A DNA stretch of 64,000 nt, taken from the NCBI RefSeq assembly GCF_037094685.1, contig NZ_CP146614.1:1178001-1242000 (forward strand). The letters run 5' to 3'. Below, piece by piece: positions 23-6,168 of the stretch. The DNA comes from Massilia sp. METH4 (GTDB lineage: Bacteria > Pseudomonadota > Gammaproteobacteria > Burkholderiales > Burkholderiaceae_D). The notes below the pieces were generated by a model, which saw nothing but the letters and a program-made list of their open reading frames with translations, did not search any database and had not been told where the DNA came from. Every line of letters begins with the position of its first letter. The first letter of the stretch is position 1. A program made the translations under genes and the position numbers.

Positions 23-130
23 AAAAAAAAAGGCGACCGGGCAGACCTGCGAAAACCATGTTTCGTGAAACATGTTTCGAAAGTGTGCTCGGACGCCGTT
101 GTCCTGAAGCCACCCCGCCATTGGGGAGGC
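23..130 (-). terminator. Leader terminator candidate (T-tract plus GC-rich stem)
   Basis: On the minus strand a run of nine T (31 to 23) follows the GC-rich segment GCCCGGTCGCC. Two 5' partners are possible. One lies in the loop and 3' half of the second hexaloop hairpin (about 119-109), so the terminator and that hairpin would exclude each other. The other is GGCGTCC at 97-91, giving six pairs around one U.U mismatch. An inner dyad (57-74) would sit inside the large loop. The T-tract is seen directly; the choice of stem is inference, and the pairing is weaker than in a textbook terminator. Confidence 0.45.
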
Positions 131-162
131 TGTGCAATGTTCAGGAGATCGCCTTTGACCTC
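109..162 (-). promoter_or_regulatory. ANTAR-type dual hexaloop RNA leader
   Basis: Two hairpins with six-base loops are spaced 14 nt apart on the minus-strand transcript. The first (162-145) pairs GAGGUC with GAUCUC around loop AAAGGC. The second (130-109) pairs GCCUCCCC with GGGGUGGC, with one U.U mismatch, around loop AAUGGC. Both loops have A at position 1 and G at position 4, the signature of RNA targets bound by ANTAR antiterminators such as NasR and NasT. The pair starts only a few bases after the predicted sigma-54 start site and precedes a T-tract. The adjacent nasT encodes an ANTAR protein. The regulated operon should lie beyond position 1 to the left. Confidence 0.75.
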
Positions 163-175
163 TTGCCTTCTACTT

Positions 176-192
176 TGCAAAAGGTGTGCCAA
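176..192 (-). promoter_or_regulatory. Sigma-54 promoter for an operon leaving the left edge
   Basis: The minus strand reads TTGGCACACCTTTTGCA. The -24 GG (190-189) and -12 GC (178-177) are separated by exactly ten bases, matching TGGCAC-N5-TTGCW. Transcription would start near 165, just upstream of the hexaloop hairpins. Sigma-54 control fits nitrogen-regulated nitrate assimilation, as in Klebsiella nas operons. Confidence 0.8.
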
Positions 193-253: not shown

Positions 254-291
254 TGCAAGTTTGCGGTGCAGCGCCGCCCGCTAATGGTGCA
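254..291. promoter_or_regulatory. Possible NtrC enhancer sites
   Basis: TGCAAGTTTGCGGTGCA (254-270) resembles the NtrC dyad TGCACC-N5-GGTGCA, with a good right half and four of six positions in the left half. A second GGTGCA half-site lies at 286-291 with a poor partner. They sit roughly 95-120 bp upstream of the predicted sigma-54 start, a usual enhancer distance. Assignment is tentative. Confidence 0.35.
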
Positions 292-364: not shown

Positions 365-1549
365 TCAGTTGCCGGCCGACCCGCTACGCTGGTGGATCGG
401 GAACGATGCGGCGTAGCGGGCCGGGTCCGTTCCGTCCCACGTGCGGCCGTCGACCAGCGTGGAGGTGCGCAGCACGTCCGTGGGCACGGCCACGCCGGCC
501 ATTTCGGCCGCTTCGCGGTACAGGCGCAGCTGGGTGACGGATTGCGCCACCTGGAGGTAATCGGGGTCGGCCTTCAGCAGGCCCCAGCGGCGGAACTGGG
601 TCATGAACCACATGCCGTCCGACAGCCACGGGTAGTTCGCCTGGCCGTCCTGGTGGAAGCGCATCGGGTGCTCGTCCTGCCACGCGCCTTTCATGCCATT
701 CTCGTAGCGGCCGAGGATGCGGGGAAGGATCGCAGCCTTGTCCGTGTTCACGTACGGCACGGCGGCGATGATCTCGGCGGTGGCGCGGCGGTTTTCATCG
801 CTGGCATCGATCCAGCGGCTGGCCTCCAGCACGGCGGCGACCAGCGCGCGGCAGGTGTTCGGGTGTGCCCGCACGAAGTCCAGCGAGGTACCCAGCACCT
901 TTTCCGGGTGATCGGGCCAGATCTGCTGGCTGGTGGCGGCGGTGACGCCGATCCCTTCGAGCAGCGCCTGGTGGTGCCACGGCTCGCCGGCGCAGAAGCC
1001 GTCCATGTGCCCTTCCACGAGGTTGTAGACCATCTGCGACGGCGGCACGGTGATGGCCCGCACGTCCCGAAGCGGATGGATGCCGTGCGCGGCCAGCCAG
1101 TAATGCAGCCACATGGCGTGGGTGCCGGTCGGGAAGGTCTGCGCAAAAACATACTGCCGTGGCTCGCGGGCCATCAGCGCGGCCAGCGAGGCGCCGTCGT
1201 TGGCGCCCTGCTCGGCCAGGCGGCGCGACAGCGTGATGGCCTGCCCGTTGCGGTTCAGGTTCATCAGCACGGCCATGTCGCGCGGCTGGGCGCCGATGCC
1301 CAGCTGGGTGCCGTACACGAGCCCATATAACACATGGGCGGCGTCGAGCTCGCCCGTCATGAGCTTGTCGCGCACGCTGGCCCACGAGGTTTCGCGCGAC
1401 AGCACGATGCGAATGCCGTGCTTCTCGTCGAAGCCCAGCATGGCCGCCATCACGACCGAGGCGCAGTCGGTGAGCGGGTTGAATCCTATGTTGACGGTGG
1501 TTTTTTCGATCTGCATGACTGCTCCGGCCGGGTTGCATTGCGCATGCAT
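365..1549 (-). CDS. nasS: NasS-type cytoplasmic nitrate/nitrite sensor
   Basis: This is a periplasmic-binding-protein-fold protein of the NrtA/NasF group, but it has no signal peptide, which is the hallmark of the NasS sensor subfamily. In known systems NasS binds NasT and holds it inactive until nitrate or nitrite binds, then releases it to prevent leader termination. Recognisable features are the early segment MQIEKTTVNIGFNPLTDCA and the central HAMWLHYWLAAHGIHP region typical of nitrate-binding homologues. The ATG at 1549 overlaps the nasT stop as TGATG; a second in-frame ATG at 1516 directly before QIEKTTVNIG is an alternative start. Translational coupling with nasT supports a stoichiometric pair. 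Confidence 0.85.
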   Translation of the reverse strand: MHAQCNPAGAVMQIEKTTVNIGFNPLTDCASVVMAAMLGFDEKHGIRIVLSRETSWASVRDKLMTGELDAAHVLYGLVYGTQLGIGAQPRDMAVLMNLNRNGQAITLSRRLAEQGANDGASLAALMAREPRQYVFAQTFPTGTHAMWLHYWLAAHGIHPLRDVRAITVPPSQMVYNLVEGHMDGFCAGEPWHHQALLEGIGVTAATSQQIWPDHPEKVLGTSLDFVRAHPNTCRALVAAVLEASRWIDASDENRRATAEIIAAVPYVNTDKAAILPRILGRYENGMKGAWQDEHPMRFHQDGQANYPWLSDGMWFMTQFRRWGLLKADPDYLQVAQSVTQLRLYREAAEMAGVAVPTDVLRTSTLVDGRTWDGTDPARYAASFPIHQRSGSAGN

Positions 1550-2148
1550 CAACCCAGCAAATCCTCCACATCCAGTATCCGCTGGGCGATCTCGGCCAGC
1601 TTCAGGTTCTTGTTCATGGCCATCGTCCGCAGGCGCTGGTAGGCCTGGTCTTCCGTCATGCCGTGCCGGCTCATCAGGAGGCCCTTGGCGCGGTCGACGA
1701 CCTTGCGCTCGGCCAGCTTGAGCTTCGTGTCCTGCAGCTCGTGCAGTAGCTTCTGCTCCTTGCGAAAGCGCGCCAGCGCCACGGAAAGCACCGGCTTGAT
1801 GCGCTCGGGCTTCAGGCCGGCCACGATATAGGCCGATACGCCCGCCTCGATGGCCGCATCCATCGACGACTGGTTGTCGTCCTCGGTGAACATGACGATG
1901 GGGCGGCGCTCGTCGCGCGTGGCCACGACGATGTGCTCCAGCACGTCGCGCGCATCGGATTCGGCGTCGACGATGATCATGTCAGGCTGCAGGCGGGCGA
2001 TCTCCTCGGGCAGGTGGAAATCGGCGGGCAGCGACGCCACCAGCACGTAGCCGGCCTCATTGAGCCCGGCATGCAGCGCGGCGGCCCGCTGCGAGGCGTC
2101 GCTTTCATGGGGAGGGTGGACGAGAACGATGCGGAGATGGCGGCTCAT
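1549..2148 (-). CDS. nasT: NasT ANTAR-domain antitermination regulator
   Basis: The 199-residue protein has an N-terminal receiver-like domain (MSRHLRIVLVHP, with VDAESDAR around residue 60), a coiled linker (about 125-145) and a C-terminal ANTAR domain (about 140-195) with VVDRAKGLLMSRHGMTEDQAY. ANTAR domains bind tandem hexaloop hairpins in nascent RNA. Such hairpins lie just past the downstream nasS, so target and regulator are adjacent. The gene reads the same way as the ABC transporter upstream, with a 91-bp gap that may hold its own promoter. Family assignment is strong; nitrate as the signal follows from the NasS partner. Confidence 0.9.
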   Translation of the reverse strand: MSRHLRIVLVHPPHESDASQRAAALHAGLNEAGYVLVASLPADFHLPEEIARLQPDMIIVDAESDARDVLEHIVVATRDERRPIVMFTEDDNQSSMDAAIEAGVSAYIVAGLKPERIKPVLSVALARFRKEQKLLHELQDTKLKLAERKVVDRAKGLLMSRHGMTEDQAYQRLRTMAMNKNLKLAEIAQRILDVEDLLG

Positions 2149-2239
2149 GCCGTATTGCAGAGCAATAATTGTGCCAACTCAGCGAATAAACATCTTACGG
2201 TCGAGCTCGTGTCAGGGAGTCAGGCACGATGACACGAAC

Positions 2240-3115
2240 TCAGCCATTCGACCGCATGCCCCATCTTTGTACGGTGGTGCGCTCCAAAGTGGCGAACAGC
2301 AGGTGTTCGACGGCGAGGCCGATCAGGATCACGGCGGCGAGGCCGGCGAAGACCTTGTCGGTGTACAGCTCGTTGCGGTTCTGGAAGATGTACCAGCCCA
2401 GGCCGCCCTTGCCGGACGAGGCGCCGAACACGAGTTCCGCGGCGATCAGCGTGCGCCAGGCGAAGGCCCAGCCGATCTTCAGGCCGGAGACGATGGCCGG
2501 CAGCGCGGCCGGCACCAGGATCTGCACGACGAACGGCAGCCCCGCCAGCCCGTAGTTGCGGCCGGCCATCCGCAAGGTTGCCGGCACGGACTGGAAGCCG
2601 GCGTAGGTGCCCAGCGCCAGCGGCCACAGCACGGCGTGCACGATCACGAACACGAGGCTGGCATTGCCGAGCCCCAGCCACAGCATGGCCAGCGGCAGCA
2701 GCGCGATGGCCGGCAGCGGGTTGAACATGGCGACCAGCGTCTCCAGCAGGTCGCGTCCCAGCCGGGTCGACACGGCCAGCGCCGTCAGCACGAAGGCCAG
2801 CGCGATGCCGGCCGCGTAGCCCTGCACCAGCACGGCCAGCGACACCTCGACCTTTTCGACCAGTTCACCGGTGGCGATGCCTTCAAAAAAGGCGCGCGCC
2901 GTCTGCAGGAAGGTGGGCAGCAGCAGGTCGTTGTCCTGCCAGCGCGCGGCCAGTTCCCACAGCAGCGCCAGGCCGGCCAGCAGCACGGTCTTGCGCAGCC
3001 AGCCCTGCTGCCACAGCCGCTGGGCGGCCGGCAGGCGGCGTTGCAGCGACGCCGGCGCGGCGGGCGCCAGGTCGTACTGGAATTCCTGGCGGATGGGCGG
3101 GGCCAATGTACTCAC
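2240..3115 (-). CDS. ABC transporter permease, sulfonate/taurine/nitrate type
   Basis: This 291-residue inner-membrane permease belongs to the BPD_transp_1 (SsuC/TauC) family. The N-terminal cytoplasmic stretch is followed by a hydrophobic helix near residues 40-55 and several more, with an EAA-type loop near residues 195-220 (LKIGWAFAWRTLIAAELV). The GTG start (3115) overlaps the ATPase stop as GTGA, so translation is coupled. It forms the channel for the downstream-encoded ATPase and the binding protein. The exact substrate cannot be read from the permease. Confidence 0.85.
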   Translation of the reverse strand: MSTLAPPIRQEFQYDLAPAAPASLQRRLPAAQRLWQQGWLRKTVLLAGLALLWELAARWQDNDLLLPTFLQTARAFFEGIATGELVEKVEVSLAVLVQGYAAGIALAFVLTALAVSTRLGRDLLETLVAMFNPLPAIALLPLAMLWLGLGNASLVFVIVHAVLWPLALGTYAGFQSVPATLRMAGRNYGLAGLPFVVQILVPAALPAIVSGLKIGWAFAWRTLIAAELVFGASSGKGGLGWYIFQNRNELYTDKVFAGLAAVILIGLAVEHLLFATLERTTVQRWGMRSNG

Positions 3116-3948
3116 AGGGCGATCCTTTCTTCTTCATCGGGCCGCGGCACGGCCGGCGCCTCGCCGAACAGCAGGTGGTGGATGCGCTGGGCGGCTTGCT
3201 GGAACTCGGCACTGCCGGCGCTGTGCAAGCCGAACTGGTGGCTGTTGAGCTCCGCGCGTACGCGGCCCGGATGCGGCGACAGCAGCAGGATGCGGTTGCC
3301 CACCACCAGCGCTTCCTCGATCGAGTGCGTGACGAAGAGCAGCGTGAACGGCGACTCCTCCCAAAGCTTGGTCAGCTCTTCCTGCATGGTGCGGCGCGTG
3401 AGGGCGTCCAGCGCGGCGAAGGGTTCATCCATCAGCAGCACGGCCGGCTGCATCGCGAGCGCGCGGGCGATCGCCACGCGCTGCTTCATGCCGCCGGACA
3501 GCGTGTGCGGATACGCATGCTCGAAACGCTCCAGCCCTACGCGGGCGATCCAGTGCCGTGCGCGTTCCTGCGCCTCGGCGCGGCCGCAGCTCCTGGAGGC
3601 CAGCAGCGGGAACATCACGTTCTGCAGCACGGTCTTCCATGGCGGCAGCTGGTCGAATTCCTGGAATACGCAGATGCGGTCCGGCCCAGGCTTCGTGATG
3701 GCCTGTCCGGCAAGCGTGATCGTGCCGGCCGCCGGCGTGATGAAGCCGCCGACGGCTTTCAGCAGCGACGACTTGCCGCACCCCGATGGGCCCAGCAGCA
3801 CGAAGCGGTCGCCACTGAACACGTCGAAGTCGACATCCTGCGTGGCGCGCACGGCGTTGCCGCCGCTGCGATATTCGAGCGTGACACCGCGGGCGCGCAG
3901 CAATGCCTCGCTGTTCACCTGTGGGCGGACGACCTGGAGCGGCGCCAT
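3112..3948 (-). CDS. ABC transporter ATPase, SsuB/TauB type
   Basis: A 278-residue cytoplasmic nucleotide-binding subunit. Visible motifs are Walker A GPSGCGKSSLL (about residue 54), the Q-loop near VFQEFDQLPPW, signature LSGGMKQRVAIARAL, Walker B LLMDEPFAALDALT and the switch histidine in LFVTHSIEEAL. The sequence matches the SsuB/TauB/NrtD group. The ATG lies one base beyond the stop of the binding-protein gene, and its own stop overlaps the permease GTG, giving a tightly packed order of binding protein, ATPase, permease. Confidence 0.9.
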   Translation of the reverse strand: MAPLQVVRPQVNSEALLRARGVTLEYRSGGNAVRATQDVDFDVFSGDRFVLLGPSGCGKSSLLKAVGGFITPAAGTITLAGQAITKPGPDRICVFQEFDQLPPWKTVLQNVMFPLLASRSCGRAEAQERARHWIARVGLERFEHAYPHTLSGGMKQRVAIARALAMQPAVLLMDEPFAALDALTRRTMQEELTKLWEESPFTLLFVTHSIEEALVVGNRILLLSPHPGRVRAELNSHQFGLHSAGSAEFQQAAQRIHHLLFGEAPAVPRPDEEERIAL

Positions 3949-3949
3949 G

Positions 3950-4945
3950 TCAGCTCCCCTGCCCCACCAGCGGGTCGTCGAAGAAGTAGTCGCGCCAGCT
4001 GGCCGGCTTGTTCTTCACGGCGCCCACGCGATGCATGAACTGCGCCAGCGCGAGCGTGTTCTGCGGCGCGATCTTGAAGTGCACTTCCGGCGACTTGAAG
4101 ATCTTCAGCAGCAGGTTGCGGTCGACCTTGCTCTTGTTGACCTTCAGGTAGATGTCGGCCGCGCCTTCCGGGTTCTTCGCCGCGTAATCGGCCGCCTCGG
4201 CCAGGGCCTGCACGAAGGCGCGGTACGTCTTCGGATTCTCCTTGCGGTATTTCTCGGTGGCGTACAACACCGTCGACGACGACGGCCCGCCCTGCACCTC
4301 GTAAGAATTGAGCACCACCCGTGCGTTCGGGTTCTGCGCCAGCTCCTGCTCCTGGAACGGCGGCGCGCCGAAGTGGCCGGTGATCTCGGTGCCGCCCGCG
4401 ATGATGGCGCTGGCCGCGTCCGGATGTGGCAGGGTCTGGGTGATCTTGTCGAGGCGGGCATACTCCTTGTCGCCCCACTGTTTCGCGACGGCCATCTGCA
4501 GGATGCGCGACTGCACCGATACGGTGACCGCCGGCAGCGCGATGCGATCCTTGTCCGTGAAATCGGCGATCGACTTGATCTTCGGATTATTGCTGACGAG
4601 GTAGTACGGGAAACTGCCCAGCGCCGCCACGCCCCTCACGTTCTGGCGCCCTTTGGTGCGGTCCCACACCGTGACGAGCGGGCCCACCCCGGCACCGGCG
4701 ATATCGATGCTGCCCGACAGCAGCGCATCGTTGATCGCGGCGCCGCCGGAAAGCTTCTTCCATTCGACCGTCACGTCGACGCCATTCTGCTTGCCGTGTT
4801 TCTCGATGAGTTTCTGCTCCTGCGCAATGTTGAGCAGCAGGTAAGTCACGCCGAACTGCTCGGCGATGCGGATGGTGCCTTCAGCTTGCGCGCCGGCGGC
4901 CAGCACGAGCGCAAGCGCACCCGCGGCGATCTTCAATCGTTTCAT
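3950..4945 (-). CDS. Periplasmic substrate-binding protein, SsuA/TauA-like
   Basis: The ATG at 4945 gives a clean signal peptide, MKRLKIAAGALALVLAAGAQA, with cleavage before EGTIRIAE; an upstream in-frame start would add 19 residues before it and is unlikely. The mature protein has the NMT1/SsuA fold, with IRIAEQFGVTYLLLNIAQEQKL at the start and the ALLSGSIDIAGAGVGP pocket motif near residue 95. It should deliver an organic sulfur or similar anionic substrate to the permease pair. A TauD-family dioxygenase upstream suggests a sulfonate such as taurine, but substrate is inferred from context only. Confidence 0.82.
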   Translation of the reverse strand: MKRLKIAAGALALVLAAGAQAEGTIRIAEQFGVTYLLLNIAQEQKLIEKHGKQNGVDVTVEWKKLSGGAAINDALLSGSIDIAGAGVGPLVTVWDRTKGRQNVRGVAALGSFPYYLVSNNPKIKSIADFTDKDRIALPAVTVSVQSRILQMAVAKQWGDKEYARLDKITQTLPHPDAASAIIAGGTEITGHFGAPPFQEQELAQNPNARVVLNSYEVQGGPSSSTVLYATEKYRKENPKTYRAFVQALAEAADYAAKNPEGAADIYLKVNKSKVDRNLLLKIFKSPEVHFKIAPQNTLALAQFMHRVGAVKNKPASWRDYFFDDPLVGQGS

Positions 4946-4988
4946 GGTCTTCTTCTTTTCGAAATTTTTCAACCGGTGCCTGGGAGGA

Positions 4989-5053
4989 GTGATGGCGTGC
5001 ACGCCATCACCGCTTTATGGGCGCGGAGCATGCTCCGCGAAACCCCCATAAAG
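4989..5053. repeat. Two adjacent strong palindromes between tauD-like gene and binding protein
   Basis: GTGATGGCGTG/CACGCCATCAC (4989-5010) is a perfect 22-bp palindrome. CGCGGAGCA/TGCTCCGCG (5022-5039) is a perfect 18-bp palindrome nested inside a further CTTTATGGG/CCCATAAAG arm pair (5013-5053). A third dyad CCGGTG-N5-CACCGG lies near 5085-5102. In RNA the first two would form stable hairpins between the dioxygenase and transport genes. They could be mobile palindromic repeats, an mRNA-processing site or a partial terminator. Confidence 0.7.
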
Positions 5054-5113
5054 CCACCGGTCTTGGAGAAACATTTCCAAAAACCCGGTGCCTGTCACCG
5101 GTTGTCGGTTGGG

Positions 5114-6028
5114 TTAGTAAGGCACGTCGCCCTCGATCGTGGTGCGGTACAGCTTGCGGCGCTGGTCGGCGGGGCAGCCGGCGGCCAGGTGCATCAGCGA
5201 GCGGTTGTCCCAGAACACCATGTCGTGCGGTTGCCATTGGTGGCGGTACACGTGCTGCGGCTTCACGCTGTGCGCGAACAGTTCCTTGAGCAGCGCCTCG
5301 CTTTCATCCTCGGGGATGCCGACGATGCGGGTGGTGAAGTGCTCGCTGACGAACAGCGCCTGCCGCCCCGTTTCCGGATGCGTGCGCACCACCGGGTGCA
5401 CCACGGGCTTTACTTCGTCGATCTGCGCCTGCGTGAGGTTCGGGCGCCACGGGCTGCGGCGCTGCAGTTCGCCGTACTGCTTCAGGTAGCTGTGCTCGGC
5501 CTTTGCGTAGCGGACCTGGCTCTTCACCGCTTCGGGCAGCGTGTCCCAGGCGAGGTGCATGTTGGCGAACAGCGTGTCGCCTCCTTCGGCCGGCAGTTCC
5601 TGCGCATGCAGCATGGAGCCCAGGCTGGGCTTTTCCTTGTACGACAGGTCGGAATGCCAGAAGTGGCCGGCATCGCCCAGGCCGATCGGTTTGCCGTTCT
5701 CGACGATGTTCGAGACGACGAGGACTTCCGGATGCCCCGCCAGCTGGAAATTCCTCAGCACATGAATCTGCAAGGGGCCGAACAGGCGGGAGAAGTCCAC
5801 CTGCTGCTGCGGCGTGATGCGCTGGTCCCGGAACACCAGCACATGGTGCTCCAGGTGGGCGGCATGCAGCTGCAACAGAACCTTGCGGGAGAGTGGCCGT
5901 GCCAGGTCGAGGCCAATCACTTCAGCGCCAAGGGGACCATCGAACGGGCGAATGAGCGGCGTGTTTTCCGGAGAAACGGCGACACTCGGGACAGCACTTG
6001 GTACTGCGGCACTCAATACTGCGGACAT
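5114..6028 (-). CDS. TauD/TfdA-family Fe(II)/2-oxoglutarate dioxygenase
   Basis: The 304-residue enzyme carries the TauD facial triad: H125 and D127 in FWHSDLSY and H280 in NRSLMHLAAG, followed by R291/R295 for 2-oxoglutarate. Family members oxidise taurine, alkylsulfonates or related compounds, releasing sulfite. The ATG at 6028 has a GGAG ribosome site; an upstream in-frame extension adds an unlikely arginine-rich 22 residues. It leads the ABC transporter gene set, separated by a palindrome-rich 168-bp gap. Substrate could also be an aryl ether or sulfate ester, since the family is broad. Confidence 0.85.
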   Translation of the reverse strand: MSAVLSAAVPSAVPSVAVSPENTPLIRPFDGPLGAEVIGLDLARPLSRKVLLQLHAAHLEHHVLVFRDQRITPQQQVDFSRLFGPLQIHVLRNFQLAGHPEVLVVSNIVENGKPIGLGDAGHFWHSDLSYKEKPSLGSMLHAQELPAEGGDTLFANMHLAWDTLPEAVKSQVRYAKAEHSYLKQYGELQRRSPWRPNLTQAQIDEVKPVVHPVVRTHPETGRQALFVSEHFTTRIVGIPEDESEALLKELFAHSVKPQHVYRHQWQPHDMVFWDNRSLMHLAAGCPADQRRKLYRTTIEGDVPY

Positions 6029-6168
6029 GTGATGCGCTCCAGCTGACGGGGTTCGGAAGCTCGCCCGGCACCGCGCTTTCCACGGCCACGGCACCAGTCG
6101 AGTGAGGCCAGTCTATGCCGCGCGCATCATGATGAAAACGAATGCTTTTTGATATCGATATGAGATTT

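Follow-up and report, generated by a model that had tools for sequence, protein, structure and literature searches.

The minus strand at the left end of the DNA that we analysed, a window of 64,000 nt from Massilia sp. METH4 (G000:C1:1178001-1242000), encodes a leader RNA in which a sigma-54 promoter is followed by three tandem hexaloop hairpins (H1, H2 and H3) and a predicted terminator. This is probably a NasT-controlled leader of an operon of the order narK-nirB-nirD-like-nasA-like, with H2 and H3 as the working pair and H1 as an extra recruitment hairpin. Three points are new: a third hexaloop hairpin close to the promoter, the occurrence of this hairpin in several groups of Proteobacteria, and a corrected switch, in which H3 and not H2 competes with the terminator. 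No three-hairpin ANTAR leader was found in print in the open-licence literature.

Table 1 Features of the leader and its surroundings. Positions are those of the window unless the left stretch, L002, is named; position 18001 of L002 is window position 1.
Feature	Position	Strand	Evidence and remarks
Candidate NtrC-like site 1, TGCACCATTAGCGGGCG	275..291	-	one mismatch in 8 to GCAC-N7-GTGC
Candidate NtrC-like site 2, TGCACCGCAAACTTGCA	254..270	-	one mismatch in 8
Sigma-54 -24/-12 box, TTGGCACACCTTTTGCA	176..192	-	exact match to TTGGCACRNNNNTTGCW
H1 hexaloop hairpin, GAGGTC-AAAGGC-GATCTC	145..162	-	6 pairs, -5.9 kcal/mol; place and covarying stem kept in relatives
H2 hexaloop hairpin, GCCTCCCC-AATGGC-GGGGTGGC	109..130	-	eight positions, one T-T mismatch, -12.8 kcal/mol; covarying stem
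H3 hexaloop hairpin (antiterminator), GGAC-AACGGC-GTCC	91..104	-	-4.0 kcal/mol alone; near-invariant in relatives; shares the 5' arm of the terminator
Terminator hairpin	32..97	-	outer stem 97-87 with 42-32, inner stem in between; -31.0 kcal/mol
T9 tract of the terminator	23..31	-	sequence
nasS, nitrate/nitrite sensor	365..1552	-	PF13379 NMT1_2, 319.6 bits; named from its place beside the ANTAR gene and the nitrate genes
nasT, ANTAR antiterminator	1549..2148	-	ANTAR PF03861, 77.9 bits, residues 141-192
Second sigma-54 box, TTGGCACAATTATTGCT, directly 5' of nasT	2161..2177	-	exact pattern match
NarK-family gene	L002 16677-17999	same as leader	TIGR00886, 289.6 bits, below the cut-off of 311.7
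NirB	L002, after the NarK-family gene		1378.8 bits, above cut-off
NirD-like ORF, 116 aa	between NirB and the NirB-like flavoprotein		by place and eye only
NirB-like flavoprotein	L002, after the NirD-like ORF		
Nitrate-reductase-type subunit	L002, after the flavoprotein		best models Fdh-alpha (497.3 bits) and NasC (454.8 bits), both below cut-off

The promoter pattern, TTGGCACRNNNNTTGCW, has six exact sites in the 6.88 Mb genome, compared with none for a backward control pattern, and two of the six are found here, one 5' of the leader and one 5' of nasT. Given the usual sigma-54 spacing, the transcript presumably starts near 165, and H1 is expected at about +4 to +20. H1 and H2 are separated by 14 nt, and H2 and H3 by TTCA. 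The loops of all three hairpins are AANGGC and C:G-closed, and 162-91 is the sole place on either strand of the window where three A1/G4 hexaloop hairpins with C:G closure and a stem of at least 3 lie within 80 nt. H2 and H3 thus form the two adjacent A1/G4 six-base-loop hairpins that define an ANTAR leader, with H1 as a third. NtrC sites have the consensus GCAC-N7-GTGC, and both candidate sites are weak; in a scan of 13 other leaders, run without a chance control, site 1 had counterparts in three congeneric leaders (L018, L020 and L022) and site 2 in two (L020 and L022).

A first-pass annotation of this DNA had read the region as a NasT-type antitermination leader behind a consensus -24/-12 promoter, and the present data support this, with NasT binding itself suggested by analogy. 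The box, the run of nine T and the ANTAR regulator and sensor encoded alongside were all recovered. The two A1/G4 hexaloop hairpins that it described are H1 and H2, with the loops AAAGGC and AATGGC, the stems and the spacing as given there, but H3 had been overlooked.

Folding places the switch at H3. The segment 110-23 folds at -31.0 kcal/mol (z -4.11), a value equalled by none of 200 shuffles; for the longer segments 172-23 (150 nt) and 172-1 the z values were -3.40 and -3.44, with one and none of 200 shuffles, respectively, equalling the fold. H3 and the terminator share 97-91, and they cannot both form because the predicted 5' arm of the terminator, 97-87, lies inside H3 and consists of its loop and 3' arm, while H1 and H2 stay intact beside the terminator. 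The last hexaloop hairpin therefore overlaps and excludes an intrinsic terminator, as in other ANTAR leaders. Since 110-23 folds at -31 kcal/mol and H3 alone at only -4.0, the default would be termination, and H3 would need help to form. Of 185 distinct leaders (the named leaders, introduced below, being those among the matches listed), 167 were predicted to have a terminator that pairs with H3 at its loop and 3' arm, which makes H2 and H3 the canonical ANTAR pair. The window leader itself sits among the 18 of 185 that failed this overlap test, because an early run of T stopped the script; folded in full, the stretch does give the terminator. A generic terminator scan of 1-400 gave no match, its 8-nt loop limit being unsuited to the outer stem and mismatches breaking the simple run. 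A match to mir-335 (21.2 bits, cut-off 64) was put down to a chance resemblance of the long terminator hairpin and rejected.

The leader is flanked by the genes that a NasT/NasS system requires. Both nasT and nasS lie upstream of its promoter, and the match to a receiver domain in NasT is weak and below cut-off. Two ANTAR proteins above cut-off were found in the genome, NasT (80.4 bits) and a second protein (41.2 bits; G000:C1:2784494-2784652, in an open frame of 220 aa). The leader continues past the left edge of the window, and nitrogen genes had been predicted there from the window alone. On inspection, the left stretch carries them: the start codon of the NarK-family gene is 2 or 11 nt beyond the edge, and the NirB, NirD-like and nitrate-reductase-type genes follow, so that nitrate/nitrite assimilation genes are indeed downstream of the leader.

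The sigma-54 box of nasT ends 13 nt before its ATG (window 2148-2177, minus strand). In the relatives compared, a GGC-N7/8-TTGC box was found 5' of nasT in 17 of 17 distinct ATG-start regions (for example in L114; 17 of 27 aligned starts, those on ATG, were used) and in 0 of 17 control stretches; the box ends 12-15 nt before the ATG in 16 of the regions, and in the remaining one the distance is 25 nt. With the usual sigma-54 spacing, the nasT mRNA would presumably start at or just before the start codon and be leaderless. Farther upstream of nasT (window 2240-6094, minus strand) lie a sulfonate/taurine-type ABC transporter set and a TauD-family dioxygenase, with NCBIfam scores below the curated cut-offs.

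To follow H1 in relatives, we used a covariance model of H2 and H3 built from six leaders (R1), which has no H1 column. At E ≤ 0.001, R1 had 63 matches, spread over 59 of the 145 family genomes, and an A1/G4 hexaloop hairpin (at least 4 pairs, within 60 nt) lay upstream in 57 of the 63, compared with 3.2 in shuffles that keep base composition only; the related genomes counted here and below are not independent. In the class, R1 matched 22 of 370 genomes, and a loose test found any upstream hexaloop in 13 of 23 matches (1.1 expected), about five of which (L046, L048, L050, L052 and L058) we take for H1 on the grounds of their loop and position. Four R1 matches (L064, L065, L067 and L097) were judged non-leaders; they are included in the totals of 63 and 23 and were left out of the loop-sequence and terminator-overlap tests. 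A phylum search gave matches in 18 of 397 genomes, with 13 new loci that are not included in the H1 counts.

A named pattern scan gave at least 120 loci, of which 115 were usable (hereafter, named leaders). Among the matches listed, a strict H1 (C-AANGNN-G) was present upstream in 41 of these 115, compared with 0.27 expected from shuffles that again preserve just the base composition and none in a control stretch farther upstream, and a looser form in 52 (5.2 expected, 9 in the far-upstream control). By group, with names taken from the record titles and again among the matches listed, strict H1 was found in Oxalobacteraceae (15/15), Rhodospirillales (3/3), Neisseriales (3/4), Gallionella/Sulfuricella/Hydrogenophilales (3/4), other Comamonadaceae (8/18), Variovorax (2/20), Rhodoferax (1/8) and the rest (6/27), and in none of the Pseudomonadaceae (0/12) or Enterobacterales (0/4). 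The closest of the named leaders compared, from Pseudoduganella umbonata (L114), has the same three hairpins and a NarK gene downstream, and is 77% identical to window 420-1 over 315 columns.

Two tests of H1 kept the feature under test out of the choice of hairpins. When loops were chosen by loop sequence alone, 107 of 197 leaders had one, 86 of them distinct (named leaders among the matches listed). Pair 1 is fixed by the search pattern in this test; stem pairs 2, 3 and 4 were formed in 85, 84 and 83 of the 86, where independent columns would give 55.7, 54.0 and 60.7. Stem pairs 7-9 were formed about as often as expected, and when the stem was shifted by one base, position 2 was still paired in 79 of 86. 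In leaders with a recognised sigma-54 box, the segment from promoter to H2 was also folded without any rule on the loop. Of 149 distinct segments, 73 had an A1/G4 hexaloop (45/55 in the R1 set and 28/94 in the named set, the latter among the matches listed), and in 70 of these 73 the loop was 32-36 nt past the -24 TGG (named part among the matches listed).

All three stems covary. In an alignment fitted to a second model, R2 (86 loci, 62 of them from the family and 24 from the named scan, the latter picked for having H1; 81 distinct rows), the covariation score was 0.487, compared with 0.160 ± 0.008 for shuffles and at most 0.097 for slid versions, and two-sided changes were seen in 14 of 18 pairs; being fitted to the structure, this alignment leans towards it. 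The outermost H1 pair was unformed in 36 of 75 rows. The distance from TGG to the base of H1 had a median of 29 (quartiles 29-30), and in 88 distinct three-hairpin leaders the median linkers were 4 nt between H2 and H3 and 15 nt between H1 and H2 (named leaders among the matches listed).

H1 is nevertheless absent from part of the set. Two congeners (G060 and G140; leaders L029 and L031) have no H1, and their sigma-54 box lies 31 nt before H2, close to the usual distance from box to H1 (median 29). Among the matches listed, two-hairpin leaders without H1 account for 12 of 12 usable Pseudomonadaceae leaders, where 42-44 nt separate the box from H2, and for 4 of 4 from Enterobacterales; such two-hairpin relatives retain H2 and H3. 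In several leaders of Variovorax, Rhodoferax and other Comamonadaceae (L101, L111, L145, L180, L182 and others), a hairpin at the place of H1 has UUCG, GCAA or another loop; some of those listed as GCGA or ACGA are hexaloops in which the fold adds one more A-U pair. As H1 is missing in the two congeners, in Pseudomonadaceae and in Enterobacterales, and replaced by other loops in most Variovorax, it appears to be dispensable and accessory.

Two Rfam families resemble the window leader. It aligns end to end with narK RNA (RF03032) at 20.1 bits, below the gathering cut-off of 43.2, and, promoter included, with P11 (RF00625) at 15.2 bits, below the cut-off of 70; filing it under either family was therefore rejected. 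The RF03032 structure has one hairpin and no H1, whereas the window leader has three. RF03032 gave no match at E ≤ 0.001 in the genome of the window; among class genomes it was above cut-off in 2 of 276 and reached E ≤ 0.001 in 13 of 276. Both above-cut-off places in the class (L063 and L060) are also R1 matches, and a third above-cut-off match comes from Pseudomonas resinovorans (L203), at a different place from the pattern match of that locus. All three (L060 1471-1541, L063 1475-1541 and L203 3385-3457 on the minus strand) start on GGCA...TGCT, which is sigma-54 -24/-12-like, and carry a second hexaloop hairpin (CGAC-AAAGGC-GTCG, GGAC-AAAGGC-GTCT and CGAC-AACGAC-GTCG) that is unpaired in the Rfam structure. 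We therefore read narK RNA as an ANTAR leader with two hexaloop hairpins together with its sigma-54 promoter, an identity suggested by the three-hairpin leader; the phrase 'narK RNA' was not found in the open-licence literature. The P11 model, which we take to be NalA, has an H3-like GGAC-AAAGGC-GUCC before its terminator and no H1 marked. The P11 cut-off was reached by none of six Pseudomonadaceae loci, and the likeness to P11 and NalA thus comes from the model and from a published description. According to a review, NalA is a sigma-54- and NtrC-dependent nirBD leader in Pseudomonas under the control of NasT and NasS (PMC12830290).

The published ANTAR operon leaders compared here are built on two hairpins. 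Those of eut, nasF and amiE share C:G-closed A1/G4 hexaloops, the last of which overlaps an intrinsic terminator (PMC3369931, PMC3369936, PMC7496416), as P2 of the dual eut hairpin does (PMC3369931); they have two hairpins, and the window leader three. SELEX with NasR likewise yielded C:G-closed A1/G4 loops (PMC7496416). In Paracoccus denitrificans, nasTS adjoins the nas operon, as in the window; the hairpins of the nasA leader, of which two (HI and HII) were named and mutated as opposed to three in the window, are required for expression, and NasT binds the leader (PMC5424462, PMC3795266). A dual motif with one further hexaloop next to it, as in the window, is described for EutX/rli55, which is a small RNA that sequesters EutV, whereas the window has an operon leader with three tandem hairpins (PMC8934654). 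Natural eut linkers are 5-12 nt, and induction was reduced with 3 or 14 nt (PMC3369931); for actinobacterial ANTAR targets, 2-25 nt were accepted (PMC8164766). A reason for caution is the report that a Bradyrhizobium narK operon with predicted NasT hairpins is up, not down, in a nasT mutant (PMC6759348).

By analogy with this published work on NasT, NasR and EutV, we infer that nitrogen limitation would act through NtrC to drive transcription from the sigma-54 promoter. When nitrate is absent, NasS would hold NasT, and the transcript would stop at the terminator 97-32 and its T9 tract. With nitrate or nitrite, NasS would release NasT, which is consistent with P. denitrificans, where nitrate frees NasT from NasS and the freed protein is reported to form an oligomer of around 130 kDa, a size that roughly fits a hexamer (PMC3795266). 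The freed NasT would bind the A1/G4 hexaloops, and closing of H3 within the working pair of H2 and H3 would remove the 5' arm of the terminator and permit read-through. Our own proposal for H1 is that it recruits NasT earliest and so raises the odds of reaching H3 before the terminator forms. Quite possibly, and we put this forward tentatively, the leader is a relay-type ANTAR switch, in which NasT loads onto the promoter-placed 5' H1 during leader synthesis and passes via H2 to the terminator-blocking H3, or in which oligomeric NasT spans all three; a freed oligomer might reach across more than two hairpins. A precedent for the relay is the argument, in one study, that an ANTAR dimer binds one hexaloop at a time, a recruitment hairpin and then an antiterminator hairpin (PMC8934654). 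The expected position of H1 near the start of the transcript would agree with such an earlier recruitment hairpin; against this role, the H1-H2 linkers (median 15 nt, 14 here) are longer than the 5-12 nt of eut.

Alternatively, the leader could be an ordinary dual-hairpin NasT leader, with H2 and H3 as the pair and H1 as a 5'-terminal stem, unbound by NasT, with a protective role for the transcript or a spacing role for the promoter. The very constant distance of H1 from the promoter is as expected for a 5'-end stem, and the long H1-H2 linker, the existence of two-hairpin leaders, and the UUCG, GCAA and other non-ANTAR loops at the same place in several Comamonadaceae all fit this reading. However, the loop, where present, is mostly a C:G-closed AANGRC, which a plain stem does not need; the 84 six-base loops found with no loop rule include 29 AACGGC and 16 AATGGC (named part among the matches listed). 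We thus regard a purely structural H1 as unlikely. It is far more doubtful still that H1 is a decoy or threshold element that ties up NasT, such that more of it is needed before H3 is held: the sequestration of EutV by EutX/rli55, with its extra hexaloop beside a dual motif, offers a precedent only (PMC8934654), and H1 occurs once per leader, in cis and immediately 5' of the working pair, with nothing here to suggest inhibition. The pairing proposed in the first-pass annotation, H1 with H2 and a terminator stem from the 3' half of H2, can practically be set aside, as the longer stems of H1 and H2 favour it but the outer terminator stem (97-87/42-32) draws on H3 and leaves H1 and H2 intact, the H3 overlap recurs in the 167 of 185 leaders (named part among the matches listed), and it is H2 and H3 that two-hairpin relatives keep.

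For the preferred reading, with H2 and H3 as the pair and H1 as a recruitment hairpin, the variation among relatives is of use. Whether ANTAR proteins act on paired hairpins as one dimer on both at once (PMC3369931) or by successive binding from a recruitment to an antiterminator hairpin (PMC8934654) is still a matter of debate. A conserved three-hairpin leader, together with close relatives that keep the promoter, H2, H3 and the terminator without H1, provides natural variants for testing ANTAR models. If the relay holds, the presence of H1 in some lineages and its absence from others would amount to natural variation in how sensitive the switch is, and a comparison of such lineages could reveal whether ANTAR dimers hold two hairpins together or move between them.

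Within the Massilia genome the leader appears to be a single copy: R2 gave one match at E ≤ 1, the window leader, and R1 found no leader of its type at a good score outside the window, its second-best match having an E of 0.026. The H2-H3 pattern with GGACAAAGGCGTCC was also seen outside Proteobacteria, in two Syntrophomonadaceae loci (L168 and L201) and in Caldatribacterium (L202), where neither a sigma-54 box nor H1 was recognised. In some relatives, a second similar leader occurs in the same region (L087, L092 and L093; L195 658-725, L163 643-708 and, on the minus strand, L146 5263-5328). In L087, L092 and L093 this second leader precedes a gene for a NasS-like nitrate-binding protein and has H3 in the form AGAC-AACGAC-GTCT; those of L087 and L093 carry an H1-like hairpin, which in that of L092 has G as the first loop base.
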